Positions 4,928 through 9,646 of a DNA stretch of 45,440 nt are shown one piece after another (position 1 is the stretch's first letter; the number at the start of each line of letters is the position of its first letter). Both the position numbers and the translations under genes were made by a program. The notes beneath the pieces are model-generated. The model was not told the DNA's origin. It ran no database searches and was given only the letters and a program-made list of their open reading frames with translations. This DNA is from Halobellus captivus (GTDB lineage Archaea; Halobacteriota; Halobacteria; Halobacteriales; Haloferacaceae): assembly GCF_003697845.1 (NCBI RefSeq), contig NZ_RDQE01000017.1, forward strand, positions 1 to 45,440, written 5' to 3'.

Positions 4928-5614
4928 ATGCTCACGGTCGCGCTCCTCCTCGGCGTCGTCGTCCTGGCGTTCCTCGCCGTCGAGGTCGGCCCGCTCTACG
5001 CGGCCGACCGCTTTCGAGAGCTCCGCGGGCCGACCGGTCCCGAGCGTGCGGCGCTCGACGAGCTCCGCCGCGAGGCCGGCCTCGACGTCGACCGGGTCGC
5101 GATCGTGGAGTCCGCCGATCCGGACTCGGTCGACGTCGCGGTGAAGGGCCCGCCCCGCCGGCAGGTGCTCTTTCTCACCGAGGCCGTCCTCACGGACCTC
5201 GACGAGGACGTCGCGGTCGGCCTGCTCGCGGCCGAGTCCGGACGGGTCGGGACGTACTACGGCGAGTTCCGCGCGGTCGCGATCGCGGTCGTCGTCGGGC
5301 TCCTGGCCGCGATCGTGACGGCGACCGTCGCGTTCGACGCCGGGTTCCTCGCGCTCGTCACGATCGGCGTGGCCTCCTTCTGGGTCGGGCGACGCGTCCA
5401 GTACGCCGCCGACGACCGCGCCGCCGACGCGGTGGGAGCGACACGGGTCGCGGACGCCTTCGAACGCGTCGCGGAGCGGCGCGACCTCGAACCCGAGACC
5501 GGCGACTGGTCGACGTGGTTCGAGGTCCAGCCCCCGCTCGGCGACCGGATATCGGCGTTGCGGGAACGAGCGAAATCGGACGACACGGCAACTGACGGCA
5601 CTGACGGCACCTGA
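4928..5614 (+). CDS. M48 (HtpX-like) membrane protein lacking the zinc-binding motif
   Basis: A 228-residue membrane protein with the layout of HtpX-type M48 metallopeptidases: a hydrophobic segment at residues 1-20, a cytoplasmic region, and two closely spaced membrane segments at about 115-152. Where active family members have LAHExxH, this protein reads LLAAESGRVG (about residues 98-107), so the two metal-binding histidines and the catalytic arrangement are absent. The other family landmarks remain: the DEDVAVGLLA helix, YAADDRAADAVGA in place of the downstream EADxxA region, and a C-terminal QPPLGDRISAL echoing the HPPxxxRI motif. It is probably a non-catalytic homologue, perhaps a regulator or scaffold. 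It follows the ATPase gene by 70 nt. Confidence 0.72.
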   Translation: MLTVALLLGVVVLAFLAVEVGPLYAADRFRELRGPTGPERAALDELRREAGLDVDRVAIVESADPDSVDVAVKGPPRRQVLFLTEAVLTDLDEDVAVGLLAAESGRVGTYYGEFRAVAIAVVVGLLAAIVTATVAFDAGFLALVTIGVASFWVGRRVQYAADDRAADAVGATRVADAFERVAERRDLEPETGDWSTWFEVQPPLGDRISALRERAKSDDTATDGTDGT

Positions 5615-5623
5615 CGGCGAGCG

Positions 5624-5929
5624 CTACTCGGCGATTCGGGCGACGGCCTCCTCGCCGTCGACCCGGACCGCGTACCGGCCGACGGTGAACGAGAGATCGA
5701 ACTCCGCGTCGGAGCGATGAGCGACGAACGCGTCGATCGCGTCGGGATCGACGTGGTCGTACAGGACGATACCCGCCTCTTCCGCAAGGAACTCGGCGTC
5801 CGTGCCCGCGAGCCCGGAGATCGCCTCCACGACGGCGAGACTCGGCGAACGGACGCCACGGCTGTGGTCGACGCGAACCGTCTCGAGGGTCGATCTGCCG
5901 TCGAAAGCGCCCGCCGTATCACTGCTCAT
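5624..5929 (-). CDS. HalOD1-type output-domain protein
   Basis: A 101-residue acidic protein made almost entirely of the halobacterial output domain (HalOD1) pattern: PSLAVVEAISGLAGTDAEFL, then VLYDHVDPDAIDAFVAH, then a beta segment (FDLSFTVGRYAVRVDGE). These small domains occur alone or fused to sensory and signalling proteins in haloarchaea; their ligand is not known. The ATG at 5929 is preferred to the start at 5962 because the minus-strand TATA box TTTATAA at 5952-5958 is centred 26 nt upstream of it. It is convergent with the M48-like gene, 9 nt away. Confidence 0.75.
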   Translation of the reverse strand: MSSDTAGAFDGRSTLETVRVDHSRGVRSPSLAVVEAISGLAGTDAEFLAEEAGIVLYDHVDPDAIDAFVAHRSDAEFDLSFTVGRYAVRVDGEEAVARIAE

Positions 5930-5951
5930 GTCCGTTCTTTTCCGGATCTGC

Positions 5952-5958
5952 TTATAAA
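5952..5958 (-). promoter_or_regulatory. TATA box of the HalOD1 gene
   Basis: TTTATAA on the minus strand, about 26 nt before the ATG at 5929, predicts leaderless transcription. A start at 5962 would lie upstream of this box and is therefore unlikely. Confidence 0.6.
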
Positions 5959-6115
5959 CCATGACTTCCGGGTCTCATAGCCGATAATTCGGGGTTTCGA
6001 CGAACCGGAGACGGAGACCGCCGTCGGCGTGATTCCGGACGCCGACGGGCGAGGGTCCGTCTCGCCCGTCTGTCGGCTCGCACGGGGGTGTGCGGACCGA
6101 ACGGATCGAGCGAAA

Positions 6116-6125
6116 CGTATACTTA
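6116..6125 (+). promoter_or_regulatory. TATA box of the pheST leader transcript
   Basis: CGTATACTTA preceded by CGAAA (a plausible BRE), in the otherwise GC-rich 5930-6404 interval. Its centre is 27 nt before the ATG of a 24-codon ORF at 6148 and 285 nt before pheS. No comparable box stands immediately before pheS, so this is the best candidate promoter for pheS-pheT. Confidence 0.5.
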
Positions 6126-6147
6126 CTCGGAAGGTCCACGCGGGGAC

Positions 6148-6222
6148 ATGGCACCCGAACACGCCACGAACGGGACCGTTCCCAGGACCGACGGCGGCGC
6201 GTTCGGGCCGTTCTTCGCGTGA
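6148..6222 (+). CDS. Possible leaderless leader peptide of pheST (24 codons, ends FGPFFA)
   Basis: An open frame of 24 codons from ATG 6148 to TGA 6220-6222. It starts at the expected transcription start of the upstream TATA box. Three of its last six codons are TTC (Phe): 6202, 6211 and 6214, and the peptide ends FGPFFA. The stop overlaps the 5' arm of a hairpin, and the next gene encodes phenylalanyl-tRNA synthetase. Bacterial pheST is regulated by a Phe-rich leader peptide; a comparable arrangement in archaea would be unexpected. The ORF could also be chance, since GC-rich DNA gives many short open frames. Confidence 0.35.
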   Translation: MAPEHATNGTVPRTDGGAFGPFFA

Positions 6223-6273
6223 ACCGCGCGCGGTGGAGCCGTCCCGCGGCGGGGCGGTGAAACCGCGCGGTTC
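6221..6273 (+). promoter_or_regulatory. Hairpin after the pheST leader ORF
   Basis: Arms GAACCGCGCG (6221-6230) and CGCGCGGTTC (6264-6273) are perfectly complementary over 10 bp. The loop contains a smaller GCCG/CGGC stem (6238-6241 with 6247-6250). No T-tract follows, so it is not a standard terminator. A ribosome held at the Phe codons 6211-6216 would cover the 5' arm. The rest of the interval, 6274-6404, shows no gene. Confidence 0.45.
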
Positions 6274-6404
6274 GGTCGGCGGCGAGGTGGAGGGGAACCG
6301 CGATCCGCTCGGGCTGCGATCCCGTCCGCCCCCGCCGCCAGGCACTGCGCCGGCGACGTGCCGGAACCGTTACCACTCAGCCACACACGTATCCACACAA
6401 TCGA

Positions 6405-7910
6405 ATGCGACTCCCGGAACGACAGCTCGCGGTCCTCGAGGCCGCGAGCGCGACGGACGAACGGACGATGGACGAGATCGCGGCCGAGACGGACCTGAAA
6501 CCCGAGACGGTCACCGGCGCGGCCTTCGACCTCCGCGACGAGGGACTGCTCGCCGTGACGGAGACGGCGACCGAGGTCGCCGAACTCACCGACGAGGGGC
6601 GCGACTACGTCGCCGACGGCCTCCCGGAGACGCGCCTCTACCGGGCGGCGGTCGACGCCGGCGCTGCCGACGGGGCCGTCCCGATGGGCGAGGTCATCGG
6701 TCGCGCCGACCTGGCGGGGCCCGAGGTCGACATCGCGCTCGCGAACCTCCCGCGGAAGGGGTTCGGCCGGATCGATTCGGGCGAGCTCACCGTCGACCCG
6801 GACGCCGACCCGGACGCCGACCCCGAGGCGGCCGCGCTCGAGGCGCTCGCGGACGGCGAGAGCGTCGACGACGAGGCCGTTCTCGACCGGCTCGCCTCGC
6901 GCGGGCTCGTCGACCTGGCGGAGCGCACCACCCGGGCGGTCCGGCTCACCGACGACGGCGTCGACGCGCTCATGGAGGGCGTCGAGGCGGCGGAGACGGT
7001 CGGACAGGTCACGCCGGAGCTGCTCGCGAGCGGCGAGTGGGCCGACGTCGAGTTCGCCGAGTACAACGTCGAGGCGGACGCGCCGGCGGTCGAGGGCGGC
7101 CGGAAACACGTGCTCCGGCGGACCGCCGACCGCGTGAAGGACGTGCTCGTCGGCATGGGGTTCCAGGAGATGGAGGGCCCCCACGCCGACAGCGACTTCT
7201 GGATCAACGACTGCCTGTTCATGCCCCAGGACCACCCGGCGCGGACCCACTGGGACCGGTTCGCGCTCGACGTCGACCCGATGGAGGATATCCCCCCCGC
7301 GCTTCTCGATCGTGTCGAGACCGCCCACCGCGACGGATGGGGCGAGGACGGCGACGGCTACCACTCGCCGTGGTCCGAGGAGTTCGCCCGCGAGGTCGCC
7401 CTGCGGGGACACACCACCTCGCTGTCGATGCGGTACCTCTCCGGCTACGCCGGCGCGGAGCTGGAGCCGCCCCAGCGCTACTTCTCCGTCGAGAAGGTGT
7501 ACCGCAACGACACGCTCGACCCGACGCACTTACTGGAGTTCTTCCAGATCGAGGGGTGGGTGATGGCCGAGGACCTCTCGGTGCGCGACCTGATGGGCAC
7601 CTTCGAGGAGTTCTACCGGCAGTTCGGGATCACGGACATCCGCTTCAAGCCGCACTATAACCCCTACACCGAGCCCTCCTTCGAGCTGTTCGGCGACCAC
7701 CCCGAGACCGGCGAGGAGATAGAGATCGGCAACTCCGGCATCTTCCGCGAGGAGGTGACCGGCCCGCTCGGCGTCGACTGCGACGTGATGGCGTGGGGAC
7801 TCGCCCTGGAGCGGCTCGCGATGCTGACCACCGGCGCGGAGGACATCCGCGACCTCCACGGGACGCTTGCCGACATCGACTTCCTGCGGACCGCGGAGGT
7901 GAGCTACTGA
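6405..7910 (+). CDS. pheS: Phenylalanine--tRNA ligase alpha subunit
   Basis: Catalytic subunit of the alpha2-beta2 synthetase that charges tRNA-Phe. The 501-residue length and N-terminal winged-helix DNA-binding-like region (residues about 1-75, MRLPERQLAVLEAASATDE) are typical of archaeal and eukaryotic-cytosolic PheS. Class II signatures are present: motif 2 around FFQIEGWVMAEDLS and motif 3 in MAWGLALERLAML, with the Phe pocket region FELFGDHPETGEEIEIGNSG. The stop overlaps the pheT start by 1 nt (TGATG). The gene lies 182 nt after the leader ORF described above. Confidence 0.97.
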   Translation: MRLPERQLAVLEAASATDERTMDEIAAETDLKPETVTGAAFDLRDEGLLAVTETATEVAELTDEGRDYVADGLPETRLYRAAVDAGAADGAVPMGEVIGRADLAGPEVDIALANLPRKGFGRIDSGELTVDPDADPDADPEAAALEALADGESVDDEAVLDRLASRGLVDLAERTTRAVRLTDDGVDALMEGVEAAETVGQVTPELLASGEWADVEFAEYNVEADAPAVEGGRKHVLRRTADRVKDVLVGMGFQEMEGPHADSDFWINDCLFMPQDHPARTHWDRFALDVDPMEDIPPALLDRVETAHRDGWGEDGDGYHSPWSEEFAREVALRGHTTSLSMRYLSGYAGAELEPPQRYFSVEKVYRNDTLDPTHLLEFFQIEGWVMAEDLSVRDLMGTFEEFYRQFGITDIRFKPHYNPYTEPSFELFGDHPETGEEIEIGNSGIFREEVTGPLGVDCDVMAWGLALERLAMLTTGAEDIRDLHGTLADIDFLRTAEVSY

Positions 7911-9646
7911 TGCCCGTCGTGGACGTCGACCCCGACGCGCTCCGGGGGCTCACGGACCGTACGGAGAAGACGAACGAGGAGTTCAAGGAGGACCTCTTCG
8001 GACTTGGACTGGAGTTCGAGGGCGAGACAGACGACGGCGAGCTGCAGTTCGAGTTCGCGCCCGACCGCCTCGACCGGCTGAGCGTCGAGGGCGTCGCCCG
8101 GTCGCTCCGCTATCACTACGGCGACGACCGCGGGGTGTACGTCCCCGACACCAACGACGCCGAGTGGACGATCGAGGTCGACGAGTCGGTGCCCGACGAG
8201 CGCCCGTACGTCACGGGCGCGGTGGTCCGCGGCGTCGACCTCGACGAGTCGGCGCTGGAGTCGCTGATCCAGCTGCAGGAGAAGCTCCACGCCACGATGG
8301 GTCGCGGCCGCGCGAAGGGCGCGATCGGGATCCACGACCTGGCGATGGTGAAGGGCGCGCCGCTCCGGGAGGGCGCGGAGCGCTCGATCACCTACCGGGG
8401 GATCGAGCCCGACGGCGAGACGTTCGTCCCGCTGGATTCGAACGACGAGCTGACGCCCGCCGAGGTGCTGGCGGAGCACGACACCGGGCGAACGTACGCC
8501 GACCTCGTGAGCGAGTACGACCGCTACCCGGCGATCTACGACGAGCTCGGCCTGTTCTCGTTCCCGCCCGTGATCAACGGGAGGCGGACCGAGGTCGACA
8601 CCGAGTCCCGCGAACTCCTCGTCGAGCTCACCGGCACGGACCAGTGGACGATCGACAAGATGTGTACGATCGTCTGCTACGCGCTCTCCGCGCGCGGCGC
8701 GACGATAGAGGAGGTCGAGGTCGCGTACGCGGACGGGACGACTCATCCGGAGGAGTACGGCTCCGACCTCGTCCGACCGAACCTCGAGGTCGACGAGAAG
8801 TCGGTGAGCCACGACCGGATCGAGACGCTGCTCGGCGTCGACTTCGAGCCCAGGGACGTCGTCGACTGCTTCGAGCGCTCGGGACTGGACGCCAGCTACA
8901 CGCTCGACGAGGCGGTGACCTACGAGGTGGAGATCCCGCCGTACCGCGTGGACGTGCTCCACCCGCTCGACCTCGTCGACGACGTGGGACGCGCGCACGG
9001 CTTCGACGAGCTGGAGCCGCGCTATCCCGACGTGGGAACCGTCGGGGGGCGTCACGAGCGCACCCGACTCGAGGACGCCGTCCGGACGAGCCTCGTCGGA
9101 CTCGGCTTCGAGGACCTCCTCAACTTCCACATGACGAGCGGGGAGGAGAACTACGACCGCATGCGGATCGAGCCGGGGACCGACGTCCTCGGCGGGGACG
9201 AGCCCGTCCGGATCACGGAGCCGTACAGCGAGGAGTACACCCAGCTCCGGACGTGGGCGCTTCCCTCGCTTTTGCTCCTGCTCGAGGGCAACACCCACAA
9301 CGCCTATCCACAGGACGTCGCCGAGGTCGGCTTCGTCGCCGAGCGCGACGAGACGGAGAACACGAACGTGGCCGAGTCCCGCCACGTCGCCGGCGCGGTC
9401 GCGCGGCGCGACGCCTCCTACGAGGCCGCGAAGGGCCGGCTCCAGGCGGTGTGTGACGACTTCGGCGCCGAACTCGAGACGCCAAGGACCGACCACCCGA
9501 CCTTCATCGACGGTCGGACCGCGGCGGTCGTGCTCGACGGCGAGTCGGTCGGCGTGATCGGCGAGGTCCACCCGGCGGTCCTCGTCGACCACGACCTCGA
9601 GGTGCCCGTCGCCGCCTTCGAGTTCGACCTCGACGCGCTGCGGTGA
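7910..9646 (+). CDS. pheT: Phenylalanine--tRNA ligase beta subunit
   Basis: A 578-residue beta subunit of the short archaeal/eukaryotic type; bacterial PheT is about 800 residues and carries extra N-terminal tRNA-binding and C-terminal domains. A B3/B4 editing-type domain occupies roughly residues 85-270 (GAIGIHDLAMVKGAPL, then FPPVINGRRTEVDT). The B5 domain with PPYRVDVLHPLDLVDDVGRA follows at about 345-370, and the C-terminus carries the catalytic-core-like domain (FEDLLNFHMTSGEENYDRM). The start is the ATG overlapping the pheS stop. Its 3' end faces lctP, 71 nt away. Confidence 0.97.
   Translation: MPVVDVDPDALRGLTDRTEKTNEEFKEDLFGLGLEFEGETDDGELQFEFAPDRLDRLSVEGVARSLRYHYGDDRGVYVPDTNDAEWTIEVDESVPDERPYVTGAVVRGVDLDESALESLIQLQEKLHATMGRGRAKGAIGIHDLAMVKGAPLREGAERSITYRGIEPDGETFVPLDSNDELTPAEVLAEHDTGRTYADLVSEYDRYPAIYDELGLFSFPPVINGRRTEVDTESRELLVELTGTDQWTIDKMCTIVCYALSARGATIEEVEVAYADGTTHPEEYGSDLVRPNLEVDEKSVSHDRIETLLGVDFEPRDVVDCFERSGLDASYTLDEAVTYEVEIPPYRVDVLHPLDLVDDVGRAHGFDELEPRYPDVGTVGGRHERTRLEDAVRTSLVGLGFEDLLNFHMTSGEENYDRMRIEPGTDVLGGDEPVRITEPYSEEYTQLRTWALPSLLLLLEGNTHNAYPQDVAEVGFVAERDETENTNVAESRHVAGAVARRDASYEAAKGRLQAVCDDFGAELETPRTDHPTFIDGRTAAVVLDGESVGVIGEVHPAVLVDHDLEVPVAAFEFDLDALR

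Follow-up and report, generated by a model that had tools for sequence, protein, structure and literature searches.

Positions 6148-6222 of the window, by which we mean the whole 45,440-nucleotide stretch of Halobellus captivus DNA analyzed here, probably encode a translated leader ORF at the very start of a leaderless transcript, with Phe codons that would sense the charging of tRNA-Phe in cis for the phenylalanyl-tRNA synthetase genes pheST. We put the probability of this reading at roughly 0.8. The original prediction of a Phe-responsive leader peptide for pheST was partly supported, as regards a Phe-codon leader ORF tied to pheST. The Phe-codon ORF is found across the haloarchaeal class in a leaderless position, always upstream of pheS, together with a covarying hairpin that keeps its distance from the Phe codons, and parallel leaders occur at Trp, Val and Thr synthetase genes. 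The predicted action of the hairpin has to be revised, as described below.

Organization of the pheST upstream region

Approximately 475 bp separate pheS (start at 6405) from a divergent HalOD1 gene on the minus strand, which starts at about 5929. The leader ORF in this interval is preceded by the promoter P1, and its stop codon is followed in order by the hairpin, a second promoter-like element (P2), pheS and pheT (Table 1). P1, the ORF with its TTC codons and stop, and a 10-bp complementarity beyond the ORF were all found where the original prediction had placed them; P2 had no counterpart in it. The leader contains only three Phe codons, all of them TTC (6202-6204, 6211-6213 and 6214-6216). 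Its ATG (6148) lies exactly 30 nt 3' of the first base of the P1 TATA element, within the spacing of ~26-30 nt between TATA and start codon that marks leaderless genes, and P1 is thereby predicted to give a leaderless transcript that starts at ~6148. P2 lies 31-43 nt 5' of pheS. We found no tRNA and no Rfam RNA, T-box included, at the locus (no meaningful Rfam match in 5600-6600). Judged by PheS, the nearest public relatives of the window (95-96% identity) are H. cibi, H. aquaticum, H. halodurans, H. rubrum and Halorubrum sp. 48-1-W, which places the window in Halorubrum.

Table 1. Features of the pheST locus, in window coordinates.
Feature	Position	Strand	Basis or remark
P1, BRE/TATA CGAAACG-TATACTTA	6111-6125	+	Sequence; leader promoter
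Leader ORF, 24 codons, MAPEHATNGTVPRTDGGAFGPFFA, TGA stop at 6220-6222	6148-6222	+	Sequence; counterparts in relatives
Phe codon cluster F-G-P-F-F, three TTC (cognate codons)	6202-6216	+	Sequence
Outer stem, 5' arm (pairs with 6263-6269)	6227-6233	+	Covariance model, conserved register
GGA, 5' side of internal loop	6235-6237	+	Covariance model
Inner stem, 5' arm (pairs with 6250-6257)	6239-6246	+	Covariance model
Inner stem, 3' arm	6250-6257	+	Covariance model
GAAA, 3' side of internal loop	6259-6262	+	Covariance model, alignment
Outer stem, 3' arm	6263-6269	+	Covariance model
P2, CGGAACCGTTACC, promoter-like element proximal to pheS	6362-6374	+	Sequence, relatives
pheS, phenylalanyl-tRNA synthetase alpha subunit	6405-7910	+	Pfam tRNA-synt_2d
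pheT, phenylalanyl-tRNA synthetase beta subunit	7910-9646	+	Pfam tRNA_synthFbeta, B5

The Phe-codon leader ORF is conserved among haloarchaea

We searched 141 pheS upstream regions (80 named haloarchaeal loci, the window and 60 further loci from 20 or more genera) for ORFs that start with ATG, span 10-45 codons and have three or more Phe among the last nine residues. Such an ORF was present in 94 of the 141 regions, compared with 0/141 on the reverse complement, 0.03/141 in shuffled sequence and 0/584 in 500-nt blocks of pheT plus downstream sequence. The leader observation is real and far exceeds chance. The comparison with relatives that the original prediction had proposed recovered the short ORF with terminal Phe codons, and it also recovered compensatory changes in the stem, which are described in the next section.

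Some species were represented in both locus sets, and 84 non-identical leaders with the hairpin were kept. All but four of these are 24-28 codons long. The usual C-terminus is GFGFFFAR followed by the stop, and most relatives carry G-F-G-F-F-F; representative peptides are MASEPCDRRVVRQSATAQGFGFFFAR and MPSEPQTDGSVRQPRQQSAGFGFFFAS. All three stop codons are used, and TTT/TTC swaps occur. In 69 of the 84 leaders a T[AT]3 element starts 29-30 nt upstream of the ATG, and in 76 it starts 28-31 nt upstream, a spacing that puts the leader ORF at the expected 5' end of a leaderless haloarchaeal mRNA.

The middle of the peptide behaves differently from its ends. In Halorubrum, mid-peptide changes at third codon positions were not in excess (798, 1047 and 864 at positions 1, 2 and 3), so that, apart from the Phe end, these leaders lack a classical coding signal. 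What is conserved is the start, the frame, the terminal Phe codons and the stop, as would be expected of a leader peptide and not of a functional protein. The Phe leader was not found in 19 non-haloarchaeal genomes of the phylum or in one divergent haloarchaeon. As a genome-wide search for leaders, the pattern GGNTTYGGNTTYTTY alone was insufficiently specific. Within the G-F-G-F motif, the first Gly codon was always GGR (26 GGG, 6 GGA) and was followed by TTC in 32/32 cases; pheS favors GGC. This bias looks like a nucleotide-level constraint, for which we have no explanation.

A covarying hairpin follows the leader ORF

The hairpin was originally drawn as a perfect 10-bp pairing, and GAACCGCGCG (6221-6230) is indeed the perfect reverse complement of CGCGCGGTTC (6264-6273). 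However, this pairing is an alternative register that is not kept in relatives, and the conserved register is shifted, with 6227-6233 pairing with 6263-6269. In the conserved architecture, a GGA/GAAA internal loop separates an outer stem of 7 bp from an inner stem, whose loop is variable. The outer stem of one relative, CGCACGG/CCGTGCG, shows a compensatory change that fits the conserved register. The window hairpin scored 38.7 bits against the covariance model (E = 2.4e-7). The single-sequence fold energy of the window was unremarkable (z = -1.2); the evidence for the hairpin is comparative.

GAAA was invariant and GGA nearly so in a MAFFT alignment. In the hairpin alignment, 83.8% of cells were paired, compared with 60.6 ± 1.6% after shuffling. 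Across 39 loci, two-sided changes were found at all 13 pairs, and the covariation score was 0.580, compared with 0.192 ± 0.020 for shuffled and no more than 0.18 for slid alignments. A second alignment was anchored on motifs only, so that pairing could not choose the alignment. With these anchors, 81% of cells were paired in 45 non-redundant loci; the same loci gave 59% when the 3' arms were dealt among species (maximum 65% in 1000) and 40-46% when the arms were slid. The covariance model has a single match in the genome of the window, at the locus upstream of pheS, and nearly all strong matches in 59 genomes lie directly upstream of pheS. The exceptions that were examined, among them L374 (in a HEAT-repeat gene) and L391, fall within coding sequence and look like chance matches.

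Spacing between the Phe codons and the hairpin

The median distance from the stop codon to GGA in the 84 leaders was 12, 9 and 7 nt when one, two or three residues followed the last Phe, whereas GGA lay nearly equally far from the last Phe codon in the same three classes (21, 21 and 22 nt). The corresponding correlation over the 84 leaders is r = -0.68, which is no test since the sequences are related. Because the Phe-to-hairpin distance is constant and the stop-to-hairpin distance varies, it is from the Phe codons, and not from the stop, that the hairpin takes its register.

In the conserved register, the base of the stem lies ~13 nt beyond the first nucleotide of the last Phe codon. In bacterial ribosomes, ~15 nt separate the first P-site base from the front edge. 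By these bacterial distances, which carry an uncertainty of a few nucleotides, a ribosome whose A site holds the last Phe codon should end at the base of the outer stem, and a ribosome at the stop codon would cover most of the outer stem and melt it. Together, the two positions suggest that the hairpin is placed to distinguish these states, in the opposite sense to the original account. There, a ribosome stalled at the Phe codons covered the 5' arm and so prevented the hairpin from closing; with the register that is conserved, such a ribosome would reach only up to the stem and leave it uncovered.

Promoters and termination signals upstream of pheS

P2 is present at most loci with a leader and is the sole promoter candidate in relatives without one. 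The leader, P1 and hairpin are intact in four related species in which P2 was not found, so that pheST would have to be transcribed through the leader in these species. Elsewhere, P2 may make P1 dispensable. A start site immediately 5' of 6405 had been named as evidence against the leader; such a site may well exist at P2, and it does not refute the leader. At 15 Halorubrum loci the leader has been lost and only the P2 element CCCGGAACCGTTACCAACCAGCC is kept; the immediate upstream neighbor of pheS at these loci is either the divergent HalOD1 gene or some other gene. Three Halorubrum assemblies have pheS split by a frame break or contig end (G001:C1:935395-936896, G040:C109 and G046:C35/C36), which are probably assembly errors.

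The absence of a T-tract after the hairpin, observed initially in the window, holds across the 84 loci. The 11.6 kb between leader stops and pheS contain no T4 run at all and only 3 T3 runs, compared with 12.2 expected, as if intrinsic termination were avoided between leader and pheS. A T-tract terminator downstream of the hairpin was rejected on these counts. A search for a competing helix, which took in the Phe codons, the two arms of the hairpin and the 3' flanking sequence, found covariation in the hairpin only.

Proposed mechanism and alternatives

In the mechanism we propose, transcripts from P1 would begin with the leader ATG. A shortage of Phe-tRNA would hold the leading ribosome at the Phe codons, its front edge resting against the hairpin base. 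An ample supply would let this ribosome advance the remaining one to three codons to the stop, melt the lower stem in passing and depart. These two ribosome states would set whether the P1 transcript extends productively into pheST, and P2 would provide basal expression in most species. The ORF, its Phe motif, the promoter spacing, the covarying hairpin, the Phe-to-hairpin spacing and the link to pheST are all visible in the sequence, and from them we infer translation, stalling and a response to Phe. The direction of the effect, with more pheST made when Phe-tRNA is short, is assumed from physiology.

The decision would most likely fall at transcript elongation or termination near the hairpin. 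In a Haloferax volcanii reporter, 59% of transcripts stopped at a hairpin that lacks a T-tract (PMC7237163), and FttA/aCPSF1, which acts in archaeal termination, binds U-tracts and cleaves downstream (PMC8716108). Transcript extension is therefore our first choice for the level of control. Termination as such is favored only tentatively, at somewhat under even odds; transcript processing or stability comes second and is unlikely, and translation, or some other level, is in each case quite unlikely.

In a classical attenuator of the bacterial type, a terminator and an antiterminator would compete, and a ribosome stalled at the Phe codons would hold the terminator open. The order of a cognate leader ORF and then a strong hairpin is that of the bacterial pheST and trp leaders, and the H. 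volcanii reporter shows that a T-less hairpin is able to terminate (PMC7237163). Nevertheless, it is improbable that the locus mirrors the bacterial pheST attenuator in mechanism, as first proposed. There is one covarying helix and no conserved antiterminator, alternative pairings being at background; no T4 run occurs between stop and pheS in any of the 84 loci; and the stalled ribosome would reach the stem base without entering the stem. With a single covarying helix and no T-tract, the bacterial two-structure attenuator and its T-tract terminator are unsupported, and the hairpin's mode of action is not visible in the sequence.

We are equally doubtful that the Phe codons themselves form a U-rich termination site, at which FttA/aCPSF1 would bind exposed UUC/UUU unless a stalled ribosome covered it. 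aCPSF1 does bind U-tracts (PMC8716108), and TTT is four times commoner among leader Phe codons (61/299) than in pheS (83/1544), with a T4 or longer run at this position in 48 of the 84 leaders and none downstream. On the other hand, the remaining 36 leaders, the window included, lack a T4 run, Methanococcus aCPSF1 requires two U4 tracts, and TTT may merely be the slower codon. This explanation would also leave the hairpin without a role.

The hairpin could instead be an operator bound by a protein, for example PheRS or a ribosomal protein at the GGA/GAAA loop, with the ORF merely positioning ribosomes. The loop is invariant in 39/39 aligned hairpins, which were selected for containing the motif, and a motif search alone found it in 79 of the 84 leaders. 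We consider an operator rather improbable, because it would account neither for the Phe codons and the spacing between them and the hairpin nor for the cognate codons at other synthetase genes, and the loop also fits an ordinary stable tandem G-A motif. Least credible is an independent small gene (a micro-protein or sRNA) that lies before pheS by chance: the ORF is closed at 24-29 codons and has a strong promoter of its own, and pheS has P2 in most species, but every leader found adjoins pheS, the covariance model matches nowhere else in the genome of the window, the peptide is conserved at its ends only, the Phe-to-hairpin spacing is preserved, P2 is missing in four species, and cognate counterparts exist at Trp, Val and Thr synthetase genes.

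Relation to known systems

The bacterial pheST, pheA, trp and his attenuators (pheM, pheL, trpL) share with the haloarchaeal locus a short, cognate-rich leader ORF followed by a hairpin, placed before the gene that charges or makes the amino acid, and cognate codons clustered in a short ORF upstream of a structural gene are found here as in those systems. In contrast to them, the haloarchaeal leader is leaderless, has neither a T-tract terminator nor an antiterminator helix, carries its hairpin right after the stop at a set spacing from the Phe codons, and is accompanied by P2 in most species. To judge from these features, the locus would work like leader-peptide control yet fails to show two defining features of a bacterial attenuator. 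T-box riboswitches of bacterial synthetase genes sense tRNA charging, as is proposed for this leader, but the codons here lie in an ORF that is predicted to be translated, and no T-box or other Rfam family matches the locus. The hairpin-linked termination sites of H. volcanii share a T-tract-less hairpin in a haloarchaeal transcript and have no known tie to leader peptides or regulation (PMC7237163). FttA/aCPSF1-dependent termination (PMC7515710, PMC8716108, PMC11616081) would be the likely machinery if the decision falls at termination, and we found no regulated leader of this type in the literature on it.

Our literature search found no description of a haloarchaeal pheS leader, although its coverage was incomplete and an earlier report is possible; an H. 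volcanii translation paper (PMC12482152) contains nothing on a pheS leader. According to a 2021 paper, no transcription attenuation or antitermination was known in archaea (PMC8448881), and functional coupling of ribosome and RNA polymerase in archaea is an open question (PMC8116511).

Parallel leaders at other synthetase genes

Three more types of cognate leader with the same promoter spacing were found at genes for an accessory TrpRS, one type of ValRS, and ThrRS. Among 30 accessory TrpRS loci, 24 passed a filter for TATA and two Trp. A 5' arm, the Trp codons and GAGCGGACAGT follow one another in 29 of the 30, and one locus has a single TGG before Arg-Pro codons. The Trp codons lie in the loop of a conserved hairpin, the arms of which code for S-A-P and G-A-D-S; for the last locus, one of two runs gave an ambiguous anchor. 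Examples of the peptides are MQSAPIGWRWRAPGADSLAAAA and MTAALEWQWRWPPSSRADSIVAAGDAA. A conserved T/C-rich element, GCTCMCTCCGTTTTC, lies downstream of the hairpin. Pairing of GAGCGGAC with this element as a 2:3 antiterminator was rejected, as its energy (-12.46) was close to that of shuffled sequence (-12.36).

Leaders of ValRS type A end in V-V-R or a close variant at 24/24 loci (for example MRVVAVVRE, MSVGIAVVRV and MGLMSSVVR) and read GTA-GTA in all 24, although GTA makes up only 9/1333 (0.7%) of the Val codons in ValRS genes. The leaders at ThrRS genes of two families have the pattern M(V/A)GVxFTG...ARF and use ACA in 15/15 examined, compared with 4/309 Thr codons in ThrRS genes. In both the Val and the Thr leaders, the codon chosen is the rarest one for its amino acid. 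Such consistent use of rare cognate codons is what sensing of isoacceptor charging would require, though nucleotide constraints on these short motifs could contribute as well; the use of GTA and ACA suggests that haloarchaea may sense the charging of rare isoacceptors. In the loci examined, the Trp, Val and Thr leaders were not found in the genome of the window, and a sample of Tyr, Ile, Leu and other synthetase genes in 12 genomes showed no leaders under a strict TATA filter.

Taken across these loci, leaderless cognate leaders probably form a general and ancient haloarchaeal means of controlling synthetase genes, for Phe, Trp, Val and Thr at least, through ribosome position and without terminator/antiterminator pairs; such a system would be the first translation-dependent attenuation in archaea. 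Cognate-codon leaders at four or more synthetase genes in tractable haloarchaea would make the questions of attenuation and coupling directly testable, and would explain a set of conserved, unannotated micro-ORFs. In the Thr leaders, the region of the start codon, GGTAGGTG, is often complementary to CACCTACC just past the stop.
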